A DNA stretch of 64,000 nt. Source: Kingdonia uniflora (Eukaryota; Streptophyta; Magnoliopsida; Ranunculales; Circaeasteraceae). Both the position numbers and the translations under genes were made by a program. The stretch covers positions 806,001 through 870,000 of the forward strand of contig JACGCM010000428.1 in NCBI GenBank assembly GCA_014058105.1, written 5' to 3'. The notes under the pieces are model-generated. The model searched no databases. It saw only the letters and a program-made list of their open reading frames with translations, and was not told the DNA's origin. Below, in pieces: positions 1,768 through 50,365 of this stretch (positions are counted from its first letter, which is position 1; every line of letters begins with the position of its first letter).

Positions 1768-2109
1768 TTAAGAAGAAGCCACCTTATTTTTAGATGGGCC
1801 AGCTCCATTCACCGACTTCTGCTCCTCCAACTGGGTCTCTGCCTGAATGAGACACTCGGCCAAGCTCGACAGATAGAGATAATGTTTCTCAGCAGTGGTC
1901 AAATGAAATTTTATCTGCTCCCACAAATAAGCGTAGGACTTCCCGCTGATGGGTTCCCTAGCTTCTAACTCTACCAGGTCAGACATGTCCCAGTAAAGCT
2001 CATGGTGACCGAAGAACTTCAACTTCAGTTCAGTAGTCTTCCGCCTTATACGACGGTCTCGGGCGAATCCCATCCGTTTATGGTATAGGGTATTGGGCGT
2101 GGTATCCAT
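1768..2109 (-). CDS. aORF2a of R1: small antisense accessory protein (114 aa)
   Basis: An uninterrupted 114-codon gene on the strand opposite pol, ending about 290 bp from the 3' LTR. I chose the second of two adjacent Met codons because the homologue in R4 starts MDTTPNT. Visible features are a basic N-terminal third, a block FFGHHELYWDMSDLVELE, then YAYLWEQIKFHLTTAEKHYL, and an acidic/Gln-rich tail. R4 (11494), R2 (4088) and R9 (50129) carry homologues in the same place; 12411 and 48911 hold more distant relatives. No signal peptide, membrane segment or catalytic motif is evident. I do not recognise the family. It is the only copy in the window with no internal stop. A TATA box lies about 85 bp upstream. 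Confidence 0.72.
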   Translation of the reverse strand: MDTTPNTLYHKRMGFARDRRIRRKTTELKLKFFGHHELYWDMSDLVELEAREPISGKSYAYLWEQIKFHLTTAEKHYLYLSSLAECLIQAETQLEEQKSVNGAGPSKNKVASS

Positions 2110-2190
2110 CACAATTTTTTAGGAAATTCTAAGAAAGGAGAGGACAATGCAGCAGAAGTAGCCTCTACAGCATTACCACCTTCATATCCA

Positions 2191-2199
2191 TATTTATAA
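2191..2199 (-). promoter_or_regulatory. TATA box of aORF2a in R1 (antisense promoter)
   Basis: On the minus strand this reads TTATAAATA within CTTATAAATATGG, about 85 bp before the start codon. A near-identical box precedes aORF2b of R9 (around 48960), and TATA boxes sit at matching places in R2 and R4. It lies inside the element, outside the LTR, so it would drive antisense transcription independently of the LTR promoter. Confidence 0.6.
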
Positions 2200-2396
2200 G
2201 CCTCATCCAACCCATTTATTACTCTATAACCACTAAAATTTCTTAATTACCCTCTATTATTACCCCTCTTGGAATTATAATACGTAACAGTCAACTTTGC
2301 AACTCCCAATTAACTTTCCAACTCTCAATAACCAACAGTCTTTCTCTGCAAACGCTTTTACACTTATTTTTGAGACCCTGGTTGAGAGGGGGCAAA

Positions 2397-3146
2397 TATA
2401 GTAGCCTACTCGCAGCCTTCTACCCTAGTCAAACACTCGAAGGCTACCTCGAAGCCTACTCGAACATCTTCAAGCCTACTTAACCCATGAACAGCATCTC
2501 AAAGATTATTGGAAGACGAAACTTCGATTCTAAATAAGGCCTCAAAGACGAACTCCACATCAACATCAAAAACACTTCAACCATATCCGTACATGGTTGA
2601 AGTGTGACAAGATAGACAACCAGCTTATCAGACAAGATGGTGGCGTTGTTGGTCCTTACAGCTACAGTGACAGACCTAACAACTGCTACTGTATCAGAGC
2701 ACAGAGATAGATCCAGCAAATGCTACAGTGACAGACCCGACATTTCTGGCATCAATACCAATTTTGGGATACCCGCTCGATATCTGGATGGTACACTTGT
2801 AATATGACCTAACCTTGGTAGCTCAGCCCTTCCAATGTTTTATAAATAAAAGAGATGGACAACCAAGGAGGGGTTACACACAAAATCTCTCCCTCAAGCC
2901 CTTACAGTTTATCTTTGACCACCTTGTAAAAACCCAGTACTCAAACCTTCGACTAGTCGATTAAAATATAAACTCTCTTAAAAGTCCTTATCAGAGGTCG
3001 TGGAGCGTCACATTCTAGGCCTCCACGCAAGTATATTGTCAGTGGAGTAATTACATTATAGATTATATACTTGAACTCCTTTGATAAAGGATTAATCCCG
3101 TAGTGTAAGAGCTGACTTCCCTTCTGCACGAAGTTAGGCCCCTACA
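2397..3146 (+). repeat. 3' LTR of R1
   Basis: Preceded by a purine tract (GAGAGGGGGCAAA at 2384-2396). It starts TATAGTAGCC, a decayed form of the TGTAATAGCC start inferred for R4, and ends CCCCTACA. Repeats of AGCCTACT occupy the first 90 bp. A perfect 13-bp inverted repeat with an 8-nt loop is at 2572-2605, and TATAAATAAA is at 2841. It is homologous to the R4 LTRs but clearly diverged. Confidence 0.8.
2841..2850 (+). promoter_or_regulatory. LTR promoter TATA box of R1
   Basis: TATAAATAAA, within TTTTATAAATAAAAGAG, lies about 300 bp from the LTR end, as expected for the U3/R boundary. Confidence 0.55.
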
Positions 3147-3784: not shown

Positions 3785-4088
3785 ATTAGCATATCTGCCC
3801 CGCAGATACACCTATCCCTGCATATAACGTCCTAACCCTGTCTTCCTCAAGAGTACGGAGACAGTCCCACCGATCCTCACCTCTCAAGACGACGACATGA
3901 AACCTCCACTTATAGTAGAATTCCTCCACTGCTTCAATCGTTTCCTCTTTCGACAAGCCTTGATACATCGGAGGAATAGAAGCGAGTATCAACATCTCCA
4001 AGGAATGATCACCAAAGTATTTCAACTTTAACCTCTACATTTTCGATGCAATCCTCTCTTCAAGAACCATCCTTTGAGTCTTTATCAT
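3785..4088 (-). pseudogene. aORF2a of R2: small antisense accessory gene, one stop
   Basis: Homologue of the R1 and R4 small antisense proteins. From an ATG at 4088 the frame reads MIKTQRMVLEERIASKM, then a stop, then RLKLKYFGDHSLEM. The middle block LKLKYFG corresponds to LKLKFFG in R1, and FYYKWRFHVVVLRGEDRW to the YLWEQIKFHLTT segment. The copy ends VSAGQIC. R9 carries the closest relative at 49842-50129. The single in-frame TAG makes it a probable pseudogene. The function is unknown. Confidence 0.6.
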
Positions 4089-4160: not shown

Positions 4161-4170
4161 TATTTATATA
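4161..4170 (-). promoter_or_regulatory. TATA box of aORF2a in R2
   Basis: On the minus strand this reads TATATAAATA within GGCTATATAAATAGTAC, about 75 bp upstream of the ATG. The R9 counterpart at 50135-50145 is decayed to TTAAATAAATA but keeps the following AGTAC. Confidence 0.55.
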
Positions 4171-4410
4171 GCCTCATATTTATTGTACAGGTATGTTTTC
4201 CCAAGCATCATCATTTATTACAGACGTGATGATTTAATAGCAACCGTCATATACATCTGCATCCACATCATCATTTACTATCCATCACTTCCCAATATTG
4301 TATAACTTCCATCCAGTCAAACGCTATCATTACTCCATTTCAAATTTTAAAGTTTTCTCACATTTTTTCTTAACCAAAGCCACTCGTGACTTTGGTTATG
4401 AGGGGGCGAT

Positions 4411-10534: not shown

Positions 10535-11240
10535 TGTAGGGACCTAACTTTGTTCGGAGGTGAAGTTGGTTCTTGCAACGTAGAATTAATCTTCAATAAA
10601 GGAATGCAAGCATTTGGTTTAGAGTAAGAACTAACTAAAGACAAACACTTGCGTAGAGTCCCGAATGTGACTCTCTACAACCTCTGACGATGATTTTTAA
10701 GATATATTATATTACTGAAGAATAATTGGTGGGTCAGAGTATAGTGTGCACTGGGAGGTCGAAGGTAAAATTCAAGAGGCCGGAGATAATTTTTCTAACC
10801 CCCACTTGGTTTCCCCTCTCCTCTATTTATAGAGTCATAGGAAGTTGAGTCACCAAATATGGGTAAGGATTACATGATTACTGTCAGGAAATCCAGGCGA
10901 GTTATGGCGCTGGCTCTGTCTGTACTGTCACTGTGATAGCTGTCTGATATGTCTCTGTACTTCAGCACTGTGGCATAGTGTTTGGCCTGTCACTGTAGCT
11001 GTAAAGGCCAATCATTACAATGGCCAATCTGGTGTGCTGATTGTCTGTCCCGTTATACTTCGACCATGTGTAGATATGGTCGAAGTGTGTCTGTCGCGAT
11101 GTGTTAGTCCGTCCTCAAAGCTTTGTCTTTGGGGGATCTCTGAGGAGTCTATTTTAGGGATTGAGTAGGCTTCGATACATTCGAGTAGGCTCTAAAGTAG
11201 GCTTCGTCTGTTTGTCAAAGGCTATGAGTAGGCTATTACA
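10535..11240 (-). repeat. 3' LTR of R4
   Basis: In plus coordinates it starts TGTAGGGACC and ends GGCTATTACA. GAGTAGGCT-type repeats lie at about 11163, 11180, 11196 and 11225, an 11-bp-arm hairpin at 11057-11086, and the U3 TATA box (CTATAAATAG on the minus strand) at 10823-10832. The adjacent minus-strand purine tract GAGAGGTGGCAAA (11241 onward) marks the second-strand primer. Confidence 0.92.
10823..10832 (-). promoter_or_regulatory. LTR TATA box, R4 3' LTR
   Basis: On the minus strand this reads CTATAAATAG within GACTCTATAAATAGAGG. The 5' LTR counterpart at 23453-23462 reads CTATAAATTG. Confidence 0.6.
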
Positions 11241-11405
11241 TTTGCCACCTCTCAGCGAAGGTCTCGAAGCCAGGTGAAGACGTGTTCGCTGAGAAAACTA
11301 TTCGGTCTTGGAATCTGAGCTATTTAACTGTTAGTTTTTGAGTAAGTAAAAAAAGAGGGTAATTAAGAGGTGTAGGTGGTTGTAGGGTAATAAATGTGAT
11401 GAAGG

Positions 11406-11412
11406 CTATAAA
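11406..11412 (+). promoter_or_regulatory. TATA box of aORF2a in R4 (antisense promoter)
   Basis: GGCTATAAAGATGGG lies about 88 bp before the ATG at 11494 and 165 bp inside the 3' LTR, on the strand opposite pol. R1, R2 and R9 have a TATA box at matching spacing. Confidence 0.6.
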
Positions 11413-11493: not shown

Positions 11494-11832
11494 ATGGATA
11501 CCACGCCAAACACGCATTACCAGAAGAGGATGGGCTTTGCTCTCGATCGTCGAGTGGAGTAGAAGATGGTGGAACTTTATATAAATATTTTTGGGCAGTA
11601 TGATATGAACTGGGATATGCCGGACCTTGTGGAGGTAGGACCTGAGGATTTCATCAATGGTGATCCTTATGCTTATCTGTGGGAACAGTTGAGGTTTCAC
11701 TTTACGACTGCTGAGAGGCGCTATTTCTTTCTAATGGCTCTGGCCGAAAGTCTTATTTGTGCAGAAGAGATCATCGAGGAGCAAAACGCAGCAAGCGAAG
11801 ATGGACCTTCCGGACGTAGGGCTACTGGTTGA
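11494..11832 (+). pseudogene. aORF2a of R4: small antisense accessory gene (113 codons, one stop)
   Basis: Starts MDTTPNTHYQKRMGF, almost the same as the R1 copy, which fixes the start. Conserved blocks are NIFGQYDMNWDMPDLVEV, then DPYAYLWEQLRFHFTTAERRYF, then an acidic tail. The single defect is an in-frame TAG at about codon 23 (VE-stop-KM). Its order relative to the neighbours is LTR, TATA, aORF2a, TATA, aORF2b, aORF1. No known domain is recognised. Conservation of protein sequence and position across four elements argues that it was a real gene. Confidence 0.68.
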
Positions 11833-12326: not shown

Positions 12327-12333
12327 TATAAAT
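12327..12333 (+). promoter_or_regulatory. TATA box of aORF2b in R4
   Basis: GGTATAAATGGGG lies about 84 bp upstream of the ATG at 12411, nearly the same spacing as for aORF2a. This suggests a duplicated promoter-plus-gene unit. Confidence 0.55.
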
Positions 12334-12410
12334 GGGGTAGGGTGGAGAGTATGTCTTCATTTGTCCTGCAGTATTCTCTTCATCTATTTCTTCAACTTGG
12401 TTTGATCAGC

Positions 12411-12728
12411 ATGGCTGGAAATGTACCCGTTCAGGAAGATTAAGCGGTGGTGAGGGCCAGGAGAATCCAGGAGGCCTTGTTGGGTCTGCAATGGAGGTTT
12501 GGTATAGAGGAGGATATTAATGCTGAAATGCCAGACCTTTTTGAAGTTGAACCCGGGGCACCACTCTACGGCATGCCCTTCGCGTACTGGTGAGGAATAG
12601 TGCAGATGAAAGGGACGTTGCCCGGCCATCGGTTGTCTCTTCTCAAAGGCTTCGCAGAGGATATAGTGGACCAGGAGGATGCAGATGCACTGGCCGTGGT
12701 TGAAGAGGAGCATCCCGCTAATAACTAG
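12411..12728 (+). pseudogene. aORF2b of R4: second small antisense gene, paralogue of aORF2a (105 codons, two stops)
   Basis: Starts MAGNVPVQED. The middle (EMPDLFEVEPG, then GMPFAYW) aligns with MPDLVEVGPE and DPYAYLW of aORF2a, and the tail is equally acidic (DQEDADALAVVEEEH). The N-terminus is Arg-rich (RARRIQ), as in aORF2a (LDRRVE). Two in-frame stops (codons 11 and about 61) mark decay. I read it as a diverged tandem duplicate; R9 has a candidate counterpart at 48618-48911. The function is unknown. Confidence 0.55.
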
Positions 12729-13969
12729 GGACCTTTGTCATATGTTGGTGCTGTTGCTTTCCTTTGCTCTATTTTTTTTGTACGAGATTTGTAATGCTTT
12801 CTTCCTCTCTGAATGAAAATGGTTTCTTGGAAAAAATAGCTTTGTCGAATAGTGAGTAGTAGTAATATAATCTGAATTCTGGACATAGTATCTTGGATTG
12901 TTGAATTGATAGTACAACTGTCGGAATATATTGTTTGTGTTGTTCGAAGATAAAAATAAATTTTATCGAAGCGAAAGATACGGTGTGTCGAAGCTGAAAA
13001 TATCATCTGTATGCATAAGTTTTTGATGGATCGAAGTTTATGATTGTAGTCGGTCAGGGGGCCAAAGTTTTTGAATTGAAGGGTGTGCCGTACATCGAAG
13101 GTCGATATATTTTATCAGTAAATTTGAGGCTATCTGTTGAGGATTGTTTGAGATGCAGAATGGTCGAGTACTCGAGTTCGGGGATTATGTCGAAGGTTAT
13201 GCTTAATTTGAATAGCCATTCTGACAGTCCAGACAGCTGGTCTGTCAGACTGGTACGTGCACCTGGGGCAGTGTGGAAAAAGTAATAATGGCGTTTTACT
13301 TGTATTACAGAAAAGCTTATGATGCGATTGTTTGGATTTCATTATTTAGTTTCGAGTCAAGGAAAGAAGGTTCGAGAAGCTTCGGATTTTGAAGGCAGCT
13401 TGAAGTGAGGGTGCTATTCGCATGTGAGATATACAAGGGGTTCATTGGTCATAGCACATTGTAGCCAAAAAGCTGGGATAGTGGGGTCGTGATAATGATA
13501 ATGGTTAGAAAATCGAGGCAGTTTTGGTTTTTCGAAATATATGTAAGTATGAGGAGAGTAGTTACTGTACGATTTACTGTAAAAATCAAAGAGTGTAAAG
13601 AGAAGAGAACGTACACCATTTTGAACTTGGTGGTGGTTGTTGCATTTGCTATTTTGATCTTGCTGATTCGAGGATAGTACTGTTAATCACCGGTAAGTCA
13701 TTTGATCTCTGCCCACTTTTCTTTGTTTTTCCCTTTTGAGGGTGAAGGACATTCTGTGTTTGGGGTTTATGTGTTATTTTCGAGGGTAAGGAGACTTGGT
13801 GGATCTAGGTTTCAACCCATTCTTGGGTTTAAGGTGGTTTGGAGGAGGTATAGGGTTTGAGATCTAAGTTTTGATAAATTTCAAGAGGGGGTAGACGGGA
13901 TAAGGGGCGTGAACACAGAATTGCCGAGTTTATCGATCTAATTGTGTGCCTCATCTTATGTAGGTTAAA
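12729..13969 (+). other. 5' region of R4 aORF1, with probable 5'-UTR intron
   Basis: No coding signal up to the aORF1 Met at 13970. A donor CCG|GTAAGT (13693) and acceptor TTATGTAG (ending 13963) bound a likely 271-bp intron in the 5' UTR. R5 has a similar donor (CTTG|GTAAGA at 28775) upstream of its aORF1. No convincing TATA box is visible. Confidence 0.4.
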
Positions 13970-14813
13970 ATGCATAACCGTCAAGCTTCATGACGGAGAG
14001 TGATAGATGAGGAGATCGAGGAATTCGAAGCTATTATTTTTGGTCGAACCCCAATGGATGAGGGTAGTGATGTAGAAGTGTTAGATGTTGTGATCGAGGC
14101 TCCATTATCAATGGTTCTGCCAGCTGAGGAGATTCTGGTTATAAGACGTCAAAAGACGATAGTGACCAAAGATAGTAATGAAGAAGAAACAGTATGGGAG
14201 GAGATGGGCTATGTAGGGCCTTTGGGTGGTGGGGAGGGAGAAAAGGTGTAGAGTGACAATAGTGGGGATTCGACTGAGCTGGATAGGGTCGAAGGTACCA
14301 TTTCTGCTAAAAATAAGATTACATTAGATCGGTTTGCAGCCAAATTGGAGCTCTCGAAGGTGGGGGTGTATCTGAGTATTGTGGGGGCAGGGTTGACCTT
14401 CAATTTGGACCCTGGGGAAGGGATTATGGCTTATAGAGGCCAAATTCGATTGGGACTGGATCTTCCTCTTCGAGGACTGGTGAAAGAAGTACTGAATTTC
14501 TGGGGGGTGGCTCCGGTGTAAATGAACGACAATTTTTATGAGATGATGAGGGTGATAGAGGGGATGAATGTAAAATTGGCTGGTGAAGGTCAAAGTTTGA
14601 TTAAGTGGTTTGACATTATTACCTTTTACTCAAGGATGGCTAGTCAGAACCCAAAGACCTATCACATCTAATGTCACCCAGAGAAACCTTGGTTCTTTGA
14701 TCTGTGCCCGACAGGCTAGGGGTGGAAGAAAGATTTGTTGATAGTAAGGGGTAACTATGAGAATGTAGACGATGATGACCCTTATAAATTACATCATAGG
14801 GTATATAATGAAT

Positions 14814-14889
14814 GTAAGTTTACTATCAAAGGGTTGTTGTTGATGTGTATATGAAATAAGTAATAACTGTGTTCTTGTTTTAATCTGCG
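14814..14889 (+). other. conserved intron of R4 aORF1 (about 76 bp)
   Basis: Donor AAT|GTAAGTT just after DDDPYKLHHRVYNE; the acceptor is now TCTGCGG, with the expected CAG apparently mutated. It has the same protein position and nearly the same length as the introns in R3 and R9. Confidence 0.55.
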
Positions 14890-15480
14890 GGTCCGAAGAG
14901 TTCATCTTGGGAGAATCCGGAAAATTATATTGATACTCTGCTCGAAGCTAGTGAAAACTGGGTAAATTCTATGTTTGGCAGTCTTAAAATCAAAAGGCAA
15001 AGGGGGAAGAAGGCGGATTCCCTGCTTTGAGACGTACCCGCTACGCCGAAACTACCAAAGAAAAAAAGAGGTGAAGGTGTTTCAAAGGGGCAAAAAGAGA
15101 TGGAAGGGGAAGAGTTGCCAAGGAACTACCAGCTTGTGTCGAGATCGCGTAGGGGATCGAAGCAAGCAGCGCCAGTGCCCGAAGTGGCAGGAGATGCTTC
15201 GAAGTTGAGGCCGAGGCCGGTAGCAACTCAAACTGAGATGGAGAAGGTCTGGGTAACTCCCAAAGCCTCGAAGGTACAGGAATAAAAGACTGGCCAACGC
15301 AAGATCCATAAGGTGCTGGGGGATGATGATGCGCTGGAGGAGGATGAAGAAATGGTGGTGATTGAATGACAGAAGCAGGCTATGGTGATACAGGCTATGG
15401 TGAAGCAGGCTTCAATGATCGAACTCTGGGAAGATGATCCAGATGAGGTTTCGATGGAAGTAAATAAGCACATGTTTCAG

Positions 15481-15570
15481 GTAACTATGCATGGCTTTAT
15501 GTTGTGGTACTTTGAGATTTCTTGAAAATTCTTCGAGTTTTGAGGTGCACTGATTTCTTGAATATTTTAG
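15481..15570 (+). other. second intron of R4 aORF1 (90 bp)
   Basis: Donor TTTCAG|GTAACT and acceptor ATATTTTAG|CAG. T-rich before the acceptor, with coding-like sequence on both sides. Confidence 0.5.
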
Positions 15571-16118
15571 CAGAGGAATGTTTGGGTGCAAACTTGCAAT
15601 AAGACAATGAAGTCATTAAAGGTGAAATTTCAACAAGCAAAGGAAAACCTGAATCTTTCTCGTGGGAAAGAGGCATCATTGGTGTCTGAAGTCTGGAAGT
15701 TGAAGCAAGATCTGGGGGTGCTTACTGACTCTTATGATGAGAGGCTCGAGCTACAGCGGTCGAGGCTGGAAAGAGAGTGGTCTAGAAAACTTGCAGTGTG
15801 TGAGAGGGAGAAAGTAGAACAGAAGGTGAATTTCCAGTGGTAGTATGTTGGTGAATGCAAGGTGAATGTTAGGTTGAAAAGCTTTATAGATGATAAGGGG
15901 TATGGCCTCGACACATTGCAACCTTACCTTGTGTCTCCTGAACTTGTTGAAGGGGATGATTTGAAGATGAAGGGAAGAGAGGCAAACATTGTTGAAGAAG
16001 TAGTTGGGAGTACTGGGGGTAGTACAAATACTTCCCTTATTGGAGCGCCCATTGGTAGGACTGTTGATGGTTTGGCTGTCGAAGGTGCGAATGAAGCTGT
16101 TGGGGGATCTGTGGAGTA

Positions 16119-16689
16119 AGAAGGTGTAACCGCGCCGATATGAGGTATTTGGGGTTTGGGCTTCATGTCTTCTTCTGCTGATTAAAATGTTAAGTTGTAC
16201 TATGTTGAACGATGGAGTTGTTTTCTGTTGGTCTCTGAACTCGGTAGGTTTTTTTTTTGTGTTTTTGTTATATGTTGAAATTTTGAAGTTGATGCTGAGC
16301 ATATTGATACCTATTTTCTGAAATGAATTCCGCATATATTGATTCTGAGCATACTGATTATGAACTTCTGATTTGATATTGATTTTCTAGTTGATTGTGT
16401 TATTTTGCTCAAACCTTGAATTGTTGGAATTTGGATGCGTATTATATTGATTTTGCTTGTTTTGGACTCATGACAATTGATCTTTAAATTGTACCGCAAC
16501 TGTGCCTCTGATGGATAATATGTTGAATGTTCTCAGCACTTGATAAAATTGTAGATAGTATTTTTGTACACTGTTACTGTTTAAATGACTATAGTGTGAT
16601 TGAACTCTGAAGACTGTCAAAGATATTTTGATCGAACTCTGTATGCTCTGCTGGACATCGAAGGCCGAAGCCACAACGATGTTTAAAAT
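16119..16689. other. AT-rich spacer after R4 aORF1
   Basis: No coding signal. Short phrases such as 'tgagcatattgat' recur at about 16293, 16346 and nearby, hinting at a very decayed short repeat, but no clean period is visible. Confidence 0.4.
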
Positions 16690-17345
16690 TTTAAAAAATT
16701 TCCAGGTTGCCTCCGAGTATCAGTCGGGCCGAGGGGACGCGATACCTAGACAAAACCCAAAAATTTATTGGACTTTGAAGGCCTAAGCCATAACGAAGCA
16801 ATATCTGATTGCCTCCAATGCATTCCTGAGGGTTCGGTCTTTCAACCATTCGTGCCCCTCGAGTTTTTTTGAATGTTGGAAACTTGAGCAATTCAAGGTC
16901 ACCTCCAAGTATCAGTCGGGGCGAGGGTAGACATGATACCCGGGGTAAACCAAGAAAGGGACTGGACTTCGACGGTTTTAGAGCCTGGACGAAGTATATC
17001 TGATCTCCCCCAATGCATCCTCGAGGGTCCAGTCCTTCGACCATCCTTGCCCCTCGAGTTTGCTCAAATTTGGAGACTTAAGCAATTCAAGGTCGCCCCC
17101 AAGTATCAGTCGGGGTGAGGGTGGACATGATACCCGGGGTAAACTAAGAAAAGGACTGGACTTTGAAGGCCTTGGCCACAATGAAGCAATATCTGATTAC
17201 CCCCAATGCATCCCTGAGGGTCCGGTCTTTCGAGTATCCTTGCTCCTCGAGTTTGCTCGAAATTGGGAGCTTGAAAAATCTCAAGATTACCCTCAAGTAT
17301 CAGTCGGGTCGAAGGTCGACATGATACCTAAGTTAAATCAAGATA
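16690..17345. repeat. tandem repeat array of R4 (period about 193 bp, about 3.4 copies)
   Basis: The marker GTATCAGTCGGG recurs at 16717, 16909, 17103 and 17297, with CCCCTCGAG and CCAATGCAT in fixed relation. Copies are about 80-90% alike by eye. It lies between the convergent ends of aORF1 and pol. Tandem repeats in the 3' region of Tat/Ogre-type elements are known to seed plant satellites. Confidence 0.9.
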
Positions 17346-23162: not shown

Positions 23163-23869
23163 TGTAGGGACCTTACTTCGTTCGGAGGTGAAGTTGGTTC
23201 TTACAACGTAGAATCAATCTTCAATCAAAGGGATGCAAGCATTTGGTCCAGAGTAAGAACTAACTACAGACAAGCACTTGTGTAGAGGCCAGAATATGAC
23301 TTTCTACGACCTCTAACGAAGATTTTTAAGATAGATTATATTACTAAAGAGTAATTGGTGGGTTTGAATACAGTGTGCACTGGGAGGTCGAAGGTAAAAT
23401 GCAAGAGGCCGGAAATAATTTTTCTAACCCCCACTTGGTTTCCCCTCTCCTCAATTTATAGAGTCATAGAAAGATGAGTCACCAAATGTGGGTCAGGATT
23501 ACATGAATACTGTCAGGAAATCCCGGTGAGTTATGGTACTGGCTCTGTCTGCACTGTCACCGTGACAGATGTCTGATGTATCTCTGTACTTCAGCACTGT
23601 GGCGCAGTGGTCGGCCTGTCACTGTAGCTGTAAAGACCAATCATTACGATGGCCTATTTGGTGAGCTGGCTGTCTGTCCCGTCATACTTCGACCATGTGT
23701 AGATATGGTCAAAAAGTGTCTGTCGCGACGCATTAGTCCGTCCTCGAAGCTTCATCTTTGGGGGATCTCTGGGGAGTCTGTTTTAGGGATTGAGTAGGCT
23801 TCGATGCATTCGAGTAGGCTCTGAAGTGGGCTTTGACTGTCTGTCAAAGTCTACGAGTAGGCTACTACA
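23163..23869 (-). repeat. 5' LTR of R4
   Basis: Pairs with 10535-11240. In plus coordinates it starts TGTAGGGACC and ends GGCTACTACA. The hairpin (23686-23715) is damaged on one arm. The TATA box is at 23453-23462. Confidence 0.92.
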
Positions 23870-43163: not shown

Positions 43164-43950
43164 CTACATATCTGCGATTGTGGTATGTATAAAAACTTGG
43201 TTCACATCAAAGACTTAACCAAACAAGAGATAAGACAAAGGTCATACTAGTCTTCATCTTTTACAACTTGTTTGGATCATTACAGTAGGCTGGACCGAGG
43301 ATAATACTTGGTTCAGCTCAATCTCTACATCTCTGCTATTGCGGCAAGTATAAAAACTTGGTTCACATCAAAGACTCAACCAAACATGAGATAAGACAAA
43401 GGTCATACTAGTCTTTATCTTTTACAGCTTGTTTGGATCATTACAGTAGGCTGGATCGAGGATAACACTTGGTTCAGCTGAATCCCTACATCTCTGCGAT
43501 TGTGGCAAGTGTAAAAACTTGGTTCAGATCAATGACTCAGCCAAAACAAGAGATACGAAAAATGTCATACTAGTCTTCATCTTTTATAACTTATTTAGAT
43601 CATTACAGTAGGCTGAATCGAGGATAACACATGGTTTAGCTGAATCTTTACATCTCCGCGACTGTAGCAAGTATAAAAACTTGGTTCACATCAAAGACTC
43701 AGCCAGGCATAAGATAAGGCCAAGTTCATACTAGCTTTCATCTCTTTCAATATGCCTGTGACATTTCTATAGTTCAAATCAAGTTTCAACTTAGTTTTAC
43801 TCAACCCGTTTCTGTGATTAAAACGAATGTGAAAATTTTATTTTATATCAAAGACCCTGCCTGACACAAGATAAGGCAATGGTCATACTAGCTTTTATCT
43901 ATTATAATGTGTCTGCGACAATTCTATTTATTTTCAGGTCAAAATCATAC
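43164..43950. repeat. tandem repeat array of R9 (period about 161 bp, nearly 5 copies)
   Basis: CTACATCTCTGCGATTG-type starts at 43164, 43325, 43486 and 43648, with a decayed fifth near 43808. Each unit includes AAAAACTTGGTTCACATCAA and GTAGGCTGGATCGAGGATAA. It lies between pol and the end of antisense aORF1. Its sequence is unrelated to the R4 array. Confidence 0.9.
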
Positions 43951-43964
43951 TATAAAAGATTATT

Positions 43965-46900
43965 TTATGCTGATGGAGCATCAACAATGCTTTCCCCCAC
44001 ATCATCAAGAGGTCTATCTTTCAGTTCGCGGGTCACAGTAGCTCTACCTTGATCTATTGATTTAGCAGTTCGAGGGACCAGTTGGGTCTCCATGGCACCT
44101 AGACAGTTACCTCGATCCATCTTAGCTCCACAGGTGCATCCCTTATCTGACAGAGTTTTGAGCAAGGTATCTCATTCTGACTCAAGTCTTTTAACTTTCT
44201 CTGCAAGATATTCAATGATCACCCTTAATAGGCCAGATCGAGACATACTAGGTACTACCGCTAATACAAATCTCACCTTCAACCTCTTGAGGCGTACCTT
44301 TAGCCTAGCATAATTATCCTTCCATTCAATTATTTTAGCATCAACCCTATCATGATAAATGACATCCTCCTCCAACTTGGCAATGTACTTCGCTAACTCT
44401 GCTAGGTTCATGGCTTCTAAGTCTACTATATGAGTATGAAGTCTCCCAAGCTCAGCGTTCAACTTTTCCCTCGTCGGCAGCACTTTTAATAATTCTTCTT
44501 TCTTCTTCACCAGCAATTCATTTGCTTTGATCTCCCCCTCTAGAACTTTCTCCCTAATAAGAGCAGTATCCAGCTTATGCTGGCATTCCCTCAAATTTAC
44601 ATTTCTCTTCTGAAAGTACCGCTGAATTTGAGATACGTCACTTTCTAGCTCTCTAATCCGACCTGAGAGACTAACTACATCCCCTCGAACTAAAGGAGCC
44701 TAAACCTCAGTTCTACTTCCCCCAGAATGCTCTCTAGCCTCAGCTTTCTTAGCATGAGCAGTGGCTTGGTCCTTTTCGGCTTTCAGTCGAGCAACTCTCT
44801 CCTTTATGTCATCACACCTGCGCTGTATTTTTTGAAATTCCATATCCTTGGTGGGGAGAATTGTTTGCAAATGTTTAGCTGCAGCCTCCAAAGTCTATAA
44901 TTTTCTCGAGCTACCCTCAGTTCGTCATCCTTTTCGATATATTTTTGTCTCATTCTCTCCAGATCATTCCTACATCTTTGAAGATCAGATCGAAATCGTT
45001 CTTCTATTTGTTCCAGGGTCTAAATACGGTATTGAGCCGTCTCGGCCTGCTTACCCTTTGCAGCCAACGCGTCGACCTGACGTTGGAGATTCTCGGCACG
45101 TTCTGTGGCCTCGGATAGATTTTCTAATCCCTTTTTAATCTCAGAATATTTCTCCTCAACCTAAAGAGTTAGGTCGGAGACAGTCTGATTCAACTTTTCG
45201 AGTTTAAAATGTGCCTTTACGTATTGATCCTCTCTATTCTCAGTCGCCTCTTTCATCCTATCGAACTACTCCACAAATTCCCGATGGCGCATGAGTACAT
45301 TGTCCTCACGGGCACGAGATGAATCCAATTCAGCCTGGGAAATATAACAAGTTTTAATACAGTTCGATTCAGGAAAGCCTTAGAATATATACATACTATA
45401 TTACTAATAAGATTATGTATTTTCTAAACATCTATTTTCAAATATTTTTAAGTTAAAGGTTTGAAATCCTTTCTCAGATAAACACTTCATGAATCTGTTT
45501 TCAGCGTACAAGGTACATACTTTCGATATATTATTCCGTATTAATAGCGTTAGATTTTTTACCATTTGTATCAATCCTATTTACTAGTTAACTTAACATT
45601 GGTATAACCTGTAAGTCAAAAACCTATTCGGTTCTAACCTGCAGCTCCGCTTGTGCAGACAATAAGGCTTTAGAGGTCTCTTTTTAACTCGCAAATCTGA
45701 ACTCTAGGTCATTTATTCTGAGACTCATCTCTCTAAATACCTACATGACGTTTATAAACAAAGTCAATCAATAGAAGTTTCGTCCTCCAATACAATTTAA
45801 ACAACTTACACATATTTATACAATGTCTACCCTACCTTCTCACTCCCATCTTCTGGGAGCTCGACATCATCCCCTTGGTTGTCAAGTACTGTCTGGCGGG
45901 AGATACCATCCAGACCATCCACGACTCCCACCACTTCTGCCTCCTCATCTTCCACCTCAACATAAGTATCAGCCTTAAGGGCATCTACCTCCTCCTGAGA
46001 CTAACCCTTCAGCATCAAGTGACAGCCCAGTTTGTCACGCTCCTCCATCACCTCATCTAGATTGGCCTTTTCCTTGACCTGCAGTTGGTCGATCGCCACA
46101 TCGTGAGTGGCCTTCAGTTGCCTGACTTCCTTCATGGCTTCAGTCTAGGCTTGAGCTAAGTCTTTCTCCAGCTCGTTCTTCGCCTTCTTCAACTCAGATT
46201 TTCCTTCTTCAATACCGAGCCAAATCACCTTGACAAGACGAGCAACCTGCAAAAATTATACCGATCTCAGTTACTAGCTCGAAGTATATTAAACATTTCT
46301 TTCTGATAGTAAAATACTTACCATCTTGCTCGTGTCTTTCTCCCCGTGGAGAGCAGCCAACCTGGCCCTTTCCTCGACCTCCCTAAGGTCATCCACCACA
46401 GTAGGTCGTACCTCAGCGACCTTCTCCCCAGAGGATTTAACCCTCCTCCTTTTCTCTTTGGCGACCTCACCACTTTCTGTGGCGTCCGGGGCCGGCAAAG
46501 TCTTTGGCATCCGTTTCTTCAGAAAGACTTGAGCTACTTTGCTCAGCTTAATGGGTTTTGGCAGGGCCGAACTGCCAGTTCCAGGAGTCTTGGATGGATT
46601 TTCTTGACCATCCTCACCACTTGTTTGCCTTTTTCATTCATCGACCCCCGCCATCGACCTAGTAAACTAAGCCTTTCGAACCTTGTTCGACCTACTGTCA
46701 ACTCTCTTCTTTCAACTAAGGCCAAGTTCCCCCAAGAAGAGTTCAAGTTCAGTCTCCTCCTCCGTTACTTCGTCCAACAGGGATTCTTTCCTTTCCACTA
46801 TAGACTTCACACCTGCAATAACACATTTTACTATCAACTACAGTTGTCAACGAAGCATAACAATAATTCTATCTATGCATGTCTATACTTACTTTGCTTT

Positions 46901-47784: not shown

Positions 47785-48617
47785 CAACATATATCTCTGA
47801 ATAATAATTCACGTATAACACATCTTTAACTATAGAAAAATTAAAATATATTGCATATATCTTCACTAACCTTCAGTATCCGAATGGAAATCGACAGTAG
47901 AATCAAGTTTTCCCCTCACAACGCTATTGTACTGCCACTTACTAGATCCCAAATCTTTTGCCCTCTTTAACCATTTATCGCCTTCAGATAACTCTTTATC
48001 GACTCCCCTGATTTTTCATCTTTCTCTATGAGTGCTCTCTAAGTTTATTTTGATAAAACATTTTTTTGGAGACGAAGAAGAACTATTTATCCTTTCTCTC
48101 TTATGCGGCTGACATTTATTACTCCTTGCACGAACCGTCCTCGATCCAGAACCGAGGCGTCCTTTCTACTCTCCATGCTAGACGCCTTGTAACTTTTCGA
48201 TAAAACCACATTTCCATCATTACAACCCCCCTCATTTTTTAGCATATTTTTTCTCCTTATTTTAATATCTTTTCTTGACCTTCCCTCACTTATGATGACT
48301 TACACTGCATGATGTCAGAGCTCTATTTCCTTTTGCATACAAAACAAAACTAGAAGCTTTTGCATTTTCATATTTTTGTTTCTCAGTCCTTGTTCATCAT
48401 ACTTATAGTGATTAACGTCATTTTCAAAATTGTACAAATATTCAAATTTATTCAAAATGTTTGCAAGATAGTCTCAAAATAGATTTGCCCCTATAGAGGA
48501 TCCGATTGACTTATATTATTTATGTTACATTCACAGTATTTATGTTATTTATATGACACACTTTACACAACATCCATCACAACTTTGGCACACTTAAGCA
48601 ACCAACATCTAATCACA
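47640..48617. other. spacer between aORF1 and aORF2b in R9, with (TA)n
   Basis: Noncoding, AT-rich. A TA dinucleotide run with one interruption lies at about 47749-47782. The aORF1 promoter should be in this interval, but I cannot single out a TATA box. Confidence 0.45.
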
Positions 48618-49841: not shown

Positions 49842-50129
49842 TCAACATATATACCCCACAGATACACCTTTCCTTCCATATAAATCCCTAACTTTGTCTT
49901 CCGTAAGGGTGCGGAGACAGGCCCAACGTTCTTCGCCTGTCAAGATGAAGACATAAAATCTTTACTTGTAGTAGAAATCTTCCACAGCTTCAACCGCTTC
50001 CTCTCTAGACAAACCTTGGTACGTCAGACGAACTGGGGATGGGATTGCCATTTCTAGGGAACGATTACCAAAGTACTTCAATTTCAAGCTCTGCGCTTCA
50101 GACGTGTATTGTTCCAAAGAATTGATCAA
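49842..50129 (-). pseudogene. aORF2a of R9: small antisense gene, start codon lost
   Basis: Close homologue of aORF2a in R2: LKLKYFGNRSLEM, then YQGLSREEAVEAVEDFYYK-stop-RFYVFILTGEERWACLRTL, ending VSVGYIC. The codon at the start position is TTG where R2 has ATG, and one in-frame stop splits the frame. A decayed TATA box (TTAAATAAATAGTAC) is at 50130-50145. Confidence 0.58.
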
Positions 50130-50365
50130 GGTACTATTTATTTAACCCCAACTTTATTATGTAGGTACATTTTCCCAAGCGTCATCATTTATTACGGATG
50201 AGACTATTCAATCACAACCGTCATATACATCTGCATCATCATTTAATAACCATCACTTCCCAATATCACGTAACTTCCACCAAGTCAAACACCATCATTA
50301 CCCCATTTCGAAATTACAACTTTTGACATATTCTTTCTCTACCAAAGCAACTCATGACTTCGGTT

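Follow-up and report, generated by a model that had tools for sequence, protein, structure and literature searches.

Small tandem genes antisense to pol, with putative TATA boxes of their own, beside the 3' LTR of Tat-type retrotransposons in Kingdonia uniflora

A family of small genes, aORF2, was found on the strand opposite pol, immediately inside the 3' LTR of Tat-type Ty3/gypsy elements of Kingdonia uniflora. Five copies of this 100–113 codon gene lie in the window (the whole stretch of 64,000 nucleotides that was analysed). Homology, position, tandem arrangement, codon-level selection and a conserved position of the TATA box were observed directly, and aORF2 very probably represent protein-coding accessory genes with internal antisense promoters. 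The best explanation as a whole, to which a probability of about 0.6 was assigned, is that they form an accessory family of Tat-lineage Ty3/gypsy elements that has antisense promoters of its own and would encode nuclear regulators. The family is known from one species, and its description is based on sequence. Features of the five copies are given below, numbered from the first letter of the window.

1768..2109, minus strand: aORF2a of R1; frame 1771–2109 (113 codons), stop codon 1768–1770; the sole open copy
2191..2198, minus strand: TATA box of R1 aORF2a (TATAAATA), about 89 bp before the ATG and outside the LTR
2213..2222, minus strand: upstream motif GTAATAAATG of R1 aORF2a
2397..3146, plus strand: 3' LTR of R1, with an approximate start; 65% identical over 834 bp to the LTR side of R4
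3786..4088, minus strand: aORF2 of R2, third subfamily; one in-frame stop
4161..4170, minus strand: TATA box of R2 aORF2 (TATATAAATA)
4212..4221, minus strand: upstream motif GTAATAAATG of R2 aORF2
11387..11396, plus strand: upstream motif GTAATAAATG of R4 aORF2a
11407..11412, plus strand: TATA box of R4 aORF2a (TATAAA); R4 LTR edge at 11240
11494..11832, plus strand: aORF2a of R4; frame 11494–11829, one in-frame TAG
12327..12332, plus strand: TATA box of R4 aORF2b
12411..12728, plus strand: aORF2b of R4, divergent tandem paralogue; two in-frame stops
49842..50093, minus strand: aORF2 remnant of R9, R2 subfamily; one in-frame stop; C-terminal part only
50186..50195, minus strand: upstream motif GTAATAAATG of R9 aORF2

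The first-pass annotation had described one such gene in each of four elements (R1, R2, R4 and R9). Position and homology were real, but the copies number five, with two of them in R4, and the start that had been given near 12360 belongs to the second, divergent paralogue of that element at 12411–12728. The annotated length of about 100–115 codons agreed with the 100–113 found, but the frame is open in one copy of the five, R1 aORF2a, which was matched at 100% in the genome search (G000:C1140:807771-808109). TATA boxes had been placed 70–90 bp upstream and outside the LTR; this held at a near-fixed distance for R1, R2 and R4, but in R9 the TATA box is degenerate, and the N-terminal part of the R9 gene was unrecognised. 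The R1 box lies outside the LTR because the 3' LTR begins only near 2397, and the R2 LTR begins at about 4409.

R1 and R4 aORF2a share 53–56% amino-acid identity. When the R1 protein was searched against the window by tblastn, R4 aORF2a was recovered at 11494–11811 (E 5e-37), and R4 aORF2b was recovered at 12453–12734 with E 5e-5 from the R1 query and E 5e-8 from the R4 aORF2a query. The proposed kinship of the R1/R4 proteins with those of R2/R9 was not significant in this search with the R1 protein alone (E 0.029 for R2 and 1.1 for R9), but it was recovered with profiles: aORF2a against the R2 type gave E 1.1e-8, and aORF2a against aORF2b gave E 1.1e-10, each score being reached by none of 200 column shuffles. 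The direct comparison of aORF2b with the R2-type profile was not significant (E 0.015; four of 200 shuffles equal). Judged from these alignments, the R1 type would be kin to R2/R9 on the strength of profiles of more copies, and aORF2b would be kin to the R2 type through aORF2a as link. A second gene in the R2/R9 type was looked for by window-wide tblastn only, and one gene was recognised.

The host element was examined in R4, whose LTR pair was located as follows.

10535..11240, minus strand (R4 being a minus-strand element): 3' LTR of R4; 89.4% identical to 23163–23869
23163..23869, minus strand: 5' LTR of R4, paired with 10535–11240

On the minus strand of R4, gag (PF03732), RT (PF00078) and RVT_3 RNase H (PF13456) all passed the Pfam cut-offs; the protease match fell below the cut-off and the integrase-like ORF had no Pfam hit. 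With gag, RT and the extra RNase H inside a flanking LTR pair, R4 was classed as a Tat (Ogre/Retand type) Ty3/gypsy element. The lineage rule places the extra RNase H between RH and integrase (PMC6317226). The RVT_3 ORF of R4 sits between ORFs resembling RH and integrase, both of which were called by eye, so the expected Tat domain order is in part a reading by eye. R4 carries its antisense genes on the plus strand, in the interval from the 3' LTR to pol. A larger decayed antisense ORF region was seen in the same element at 13994–16119 (plus strand); a Pfam scan of three pieces from it returned no family. A stretch within this region has, by eye, what we take to be a resemblance to Retand TRP28 proteins. 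A tandem array (16769–17328; 194-bp units, 2.9 copies) lies between pol and the R4 antisense genes, and another lies inside R9 (43164–43750; 161-bp units, 3.6 copies). Arrays between pol and antisense genes have been reported in many Retand elements. R1 is an internally deleted derivative, in which a truncated RT ends about 110–130 bp from the aORF2 stop and is joined to the 3' flank of aORF2a. An RT match beside aORF2a was found at one of 30 aORF2a loci taken with 1.5 kb flanks, that of R1 itself. A non-autonomous family built like R1 was ruled out by the uniqueness of this joint among the 30 loci.

Copies were collected from the 1,003,380,622 bp assembly (2693 contigs). The first-look candidates, listed without de-duplication, numbered 7304 for aORF2a, 6161 for aORF2b and 13682 for the R2 type. 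All of the 150 that were scored in each list matched, with E values of at most 2.4e-41, 8.9e-45 and 1.4e-31, respectively. The frame was free of in-frame stops in 22 of 70 fetched aORF2a copies and in 13 of 30 fetched aORF2b matches. With 1.5 kb flanks, an aORF2b match lay downstream of aORF2a at 26 of 30 aORF2a loci (the others being L001, L014, L026 and L028), and an aORF2a match lay upstream of aORF2b at all 30 aORF2b loci, the piece at L082 amounting to 35 residues. Homologues at the same position in other elements, whose absence would have refuted the first-pass reading, were found in many copies. Two aORF2a loci (L045 and L046) differ by 0.1% over about 940 bp, set against a median nearest-neighbour distance of 13.5%; they represent either duplicated contig ends or a very recent duplication, and were counted as two.

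Upstream sequences were scanned for TATA[AT][AG] between −105 and −60. Of the 70 aORF2a copies, 61 had a match (mode −89; 0.114 expected from shuffles), as had 28 of 29 aORF2b copies (mode −81; 0.100 expected from shuffles), one of the 30 aORF2b copies having been dropped for lack of a start. The box stood at −88 in 16 of 21 R4-type aORF2a copies, an upstream TATAWR was present in seven of eight R2-type copies, and 17 of 20 aORF2a copies sampled by DNA had the box at −88 to −90, but here the DNA query included that stretch. In a profile of the 70 aORF2a copies, the block from −150 to −106 and the TATA box had a mean pairwise identity of 83–88%, against 62–76% for the 15 bp before the TATA block and for the stretch from TATA to ATG; conservation was equally high (85–90%) at the edge of the LTR, around −315 to −286, and the conservation of the TATA box is partly a matter of common descent.

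The decamer GTAATAAATG, which was picked after the sequences had been inspected, has five occurrences in the window where 0.24 would be expected, and none of 100 shuffles reached five. Four of the five sites lie just upstream of aORF2 genes (R1, R2, R4 and R9). The fifth (48113–48122, minus strand) lies in R9 ahead of a TATA-like stretch at about 48060 (minus strand) and an ATG; it possibly marks the promoter of a larger R9 antisense gene (coiled-coil-like ORF, 44172–44594). Across the genome, TAATAAATG was found at −140 to −85 in 48 of 70 R1-type copies and within 150 bp in seven of 21 R4-type copies, and the exact decamer was present in one of eight fetched R2-type copies, with variants in the rest. 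A slightly relaxed motif and the TATA box were both present in 43 of the 70 aORF2a copies, at a spacing of 23–24 bp in 40. The longer pattern GTAATAAATGNNATGA, with two mismatches allowed, was not enriched (two matches against 1.10 expected).

Selection was assessed at the level of codons. R1 and R4 aORF2a share 63% nucleotide and 53% amino-acid identity, with 34, 28 and 61 differences at the three codon positions (dS 2.08, dN 0.34); the corresponding differences between R2 and R9 were 16, 16 and 30 (dN/dS 0.26). Between the R1 and R4 families, dN/dS was 0.18 for aORF2a, well below the value near 1 that would have refuted the first-pass reading, and for aORF2b pN was 0.278 against pS 0.753, with dS saturated. 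Among 67 aORF2a copies (three of the 70 were dropped for odd tails), mean differences by codon position were 0.165, 0.124 and 0.310. Changes were then divided into shared (single changes with both states in at least four copies) and private (seen in one copy only). For the 67 copies N/S was 0.60 for shared and 3.92 for private changes against 3.75 expected, and for 26 aORF2b copies (four of 30 dropped) 1.27 and 3.23 against 3.41 expected, the neutral expectation weighting all changes equally and ignoring a transition excess (kappa about 5 and about 7). Maximum-likelihood codon w over the whole trees was 0.46 (aORF2a) and about 0.74 (aORF2b), with internal branches making up 16% and 8% of tree length, as expected for a mixture of selected and neutral change. 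Nine R2-type copies gave position differences of 0.157, 0.120 and 0.269 and a shared w of 0.24 (states in at least three copies); their private w of 0.45, from a small sample taken by protein similarity, was not neutral.

As the first set came from protein similarity, 20 further aORF2a copies, absent from the protein list, were sampled by promoter DNA. In these, with frameshifting gaps in 13 of the 20 and just nine codons mapped in one (L111), shared w was 0.13 and private w 0.92. When the 67 and the 20 were pooled, shared w was 0.18 and private w 1.50, and for pairs within the 20 in this pooled set the values were 0.25 and 2.78; private w needs caution, as the division into private and shared depends on sample size, and the pooled private value is skewed, probably because recurrent synonymous changes cease to be private. 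A pure artefact of protein-based sampling was rejected, since the control sampled by DNA keeps the low shared w.

Frames were compared over the 70 aORF2a copies. Shared w was 0.16 in the true frame, 1.15 and 1.70 in the other two frames of the same strand, and 1.00, 2.05 and 0.22 on the opposite strand. Third positions of the opposite-strand frame with w 0.22 coincide with those of the true frame, and it holds 7.5 stops per copy against 1.04, by which coding on the sense strand was rejected. The start ATG was present in 66 of 70 copies and a terminal TAA or TGA in 68. Of the six frames, the stated one alone combines w far below 1 with few stops, and a chance ORF was rejected by the frame and stop controls. 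Flanking non-coding frames gave shared w of 0.45 to 1.12, and the shared ratio is therefore noisy by about two-fold. From these sequence comparisons, purifying selection acted on the aORF2 proteins while the elements multiplied, and private changes look roughly neutral.

The small protein had been described as unrecognised, and it matched no Pfam family at the cut-off and no solved relative. Pfam searches with three window ORFs, 30 members of A2 and seven of A7 gave weak matches under the cut-off only (RFX5_N, E 0.11; Top6b_C, E 0.066; others). With nothing over the cut-off, TRP28 (PF04195) and other Pfam domains were rejected for aORF2. A genome search with PF04195 gave no match among 150 scored candidates; control genomes were likewise silent, so this negative is not decisive. 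Sequence searches of the PDB gave no solved relative (best E 0.59 and 0.028), and nothing was found in a single-sequence protein search. Two profile searches of 5.8 billion proteins gave four proteins in total, all from Kingdonia. Unannotated small ORFs in other plants would escape these searches, because they need shared five-residue words and annotated proteins. P0001 and P0002, Kingdonia 'hypothetical proteins', are gene models that by eye span remnants of both aORF2a and aORF2b, and were interpreted as remnants of retrotransposons wrongly modelled as genes of the host. Both paralogues were modelled by AlphaFold with three helices, although confidence was low (pLDDT 61 and 55), and a Foldseek search of the PDB with one AlphaFold model gave no match at E ≤ 0.001 (single match, E 2.3). 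The region of the first predicted helix is basic, with a mean net charge of +7.1 in aORF2a (19 copies) and +5.1 in aORF2b (eight copies); the C-terminal part is acidic (−2.7 and −8.0), as are the whole proteins (−3.6 and −11.5). This overall acidity does not favour simple DNA binding. Taken together, the interpretation made in the first-pass annotation was partly supported.

The preferred reading may be put as follows. A cassette that adjoins the 3' LTR on its inner side, opposite pol, consists of aORF2a followed by aORF2b, or of one recognised gene in the R2/R9 type. Each gene carries a putative RNA polymerase II core promoter with the TATA box 80–90 bp before the ATG. In many aORF2a copies a GTAATAAATG-like motif within a conserved block stands about 24 bp upstream of that box. 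Transcription would begin some 30 bp downstream of each TATA box, independently of LTR transcription, and each gene encodes a protein of 100–113 residues whose N-terminal segment is basic. These proteins may have a nuclear role in regulating expression or replication of the element, in keeping with proposals made for the antisense proteins of Grande and of retroviruses. A regulatory role is slightly favoured over a structural or other one. In a more speculative and rather less likely form of the proposal, the cassette would resemble the accessory genes of complex retroviruses: duplicated and diverged small proteins, made from autonomous antisense promoters that share a cis motif, would bind their own promoters in a feedback circuit and so control or protect the element independently of the LTR.

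A related but rather doubtful reading, drawn by analogy with the VANC proteins of VANDAL transposons, is that aORF2 proteins are silencing-escape factors, which would bind the promoter region of their own element and lift or prevent silencing by the host. The putative promoter outside the LTR and the basic N-terminal segment would suit such a factor, and the decamer, four of whose five sites in the window are at aORF2 promoters belonging to divergent elements, could be its target; yet few R2-type and R4-type copies have retained the decamer, the net charge of the proteins is acidic, and no known factor in the searched libraries proved related to them. Small, predicted helical proteins with charged ends could also be structural or packaging accessories, partners of Gag or of the particle rather than regulators of expression. 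This was considered unlikely: no Pfam Gag match was obtained, and with antisense promoters of their own the proteins would be made in amounts independent of gag-pol, which would be unusual for a particle component.

If function resided in the RNA alone, the ORF would be incidental. Antisense promoters that make non-coding RNA are known in other retroelements (PMC7264820), and the promoter block of aORF2 is conserved about equally to the ORF. However, a function of RNA alone predicts no codon phase, whereas the rate of change at third codon positions is about double that at positions 1 and 2, and the stated frame alone combines codon phase, few stops and a kept start and stop, which makes this reading very unlikely. 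RNA and protein functions could coexist. Passive carriage of a captured host gene fragment has a precedent in the gene capture known for LTR elements (PMC7264820), but its passive part is refuted by purifying selection. The genes occupy the same site in divergent families (the LTR sides of R1 and R4 being 65% identical), and of the four Kingdonia proteins returned by the protein searches at least two were read by eye as element remnants; capture was thus regarded as highly improbable. The reading of aORF2 as accessory genes with their own antisense promoters gives a small, abundant and selected protein pair with putative promoters, which lends itself more readily to expression and assay than the large antisense ORFs do, and which opens the function of antisense retrotransposon genes to direct tests.

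Antisense ORFs have been described in print for Retand, Grande, RIRE2 and PvRetro13. Extra ORFs were counted from 250 codons upwards by Neumann 2019 (PMC6317226) and from 600 bp upwards, unless TRP28, by Vicient 2025 (PMC11963269); with these cut-offs, both surveys would pass over a family of 100–113 codons. No small tandem antisense family was seen among the sources consulted. For maize Grande, an antisense gene with a promoter of its own has already been published: gene23 (aORF-3R) lies antisense between pol and the 3' LTR, its transcription is reported to begin at a promoter upstream of it, and its protein was reported to be nuclear (PMC7264820). In Retand, 97% of clusters are reported to have antisense TRP28 (Transposase_28, PF04195) ORFs in the pol–3' LTR region (PMC11963269); aORF2 share the orientation and the interval but have no PF04195 match. 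Structure prediction has linked the extra ORFs that Tekay and Athila elements carry in sunflower to silencing (PMC11728184), and these belong to another lineage and are ORFs of another kind. Retroviral antisense proteins such as HBZ of HTLV-1 are, like aORF2, antisense accessory products (PMC11963269), a likeness taken from description. The antisense proteins of both Grande and retroviruses have been proposed to regulate element expression or replication. Retroviral antisense promoters sit within the 3' LTR (PMC10186651; for HTLV, PMC7264820), whereas the TATA boxes of aORF2 lie inside the element, beside the LTR. In position and description alone, aORF2 are similar to Grande gene23, being antisense, placed in the interval between pol and the 3' LTR and present in many copies; they differ from it as tandem paralogues of 105–113 residues that adjoin the LTR, each with a putative TATA box.
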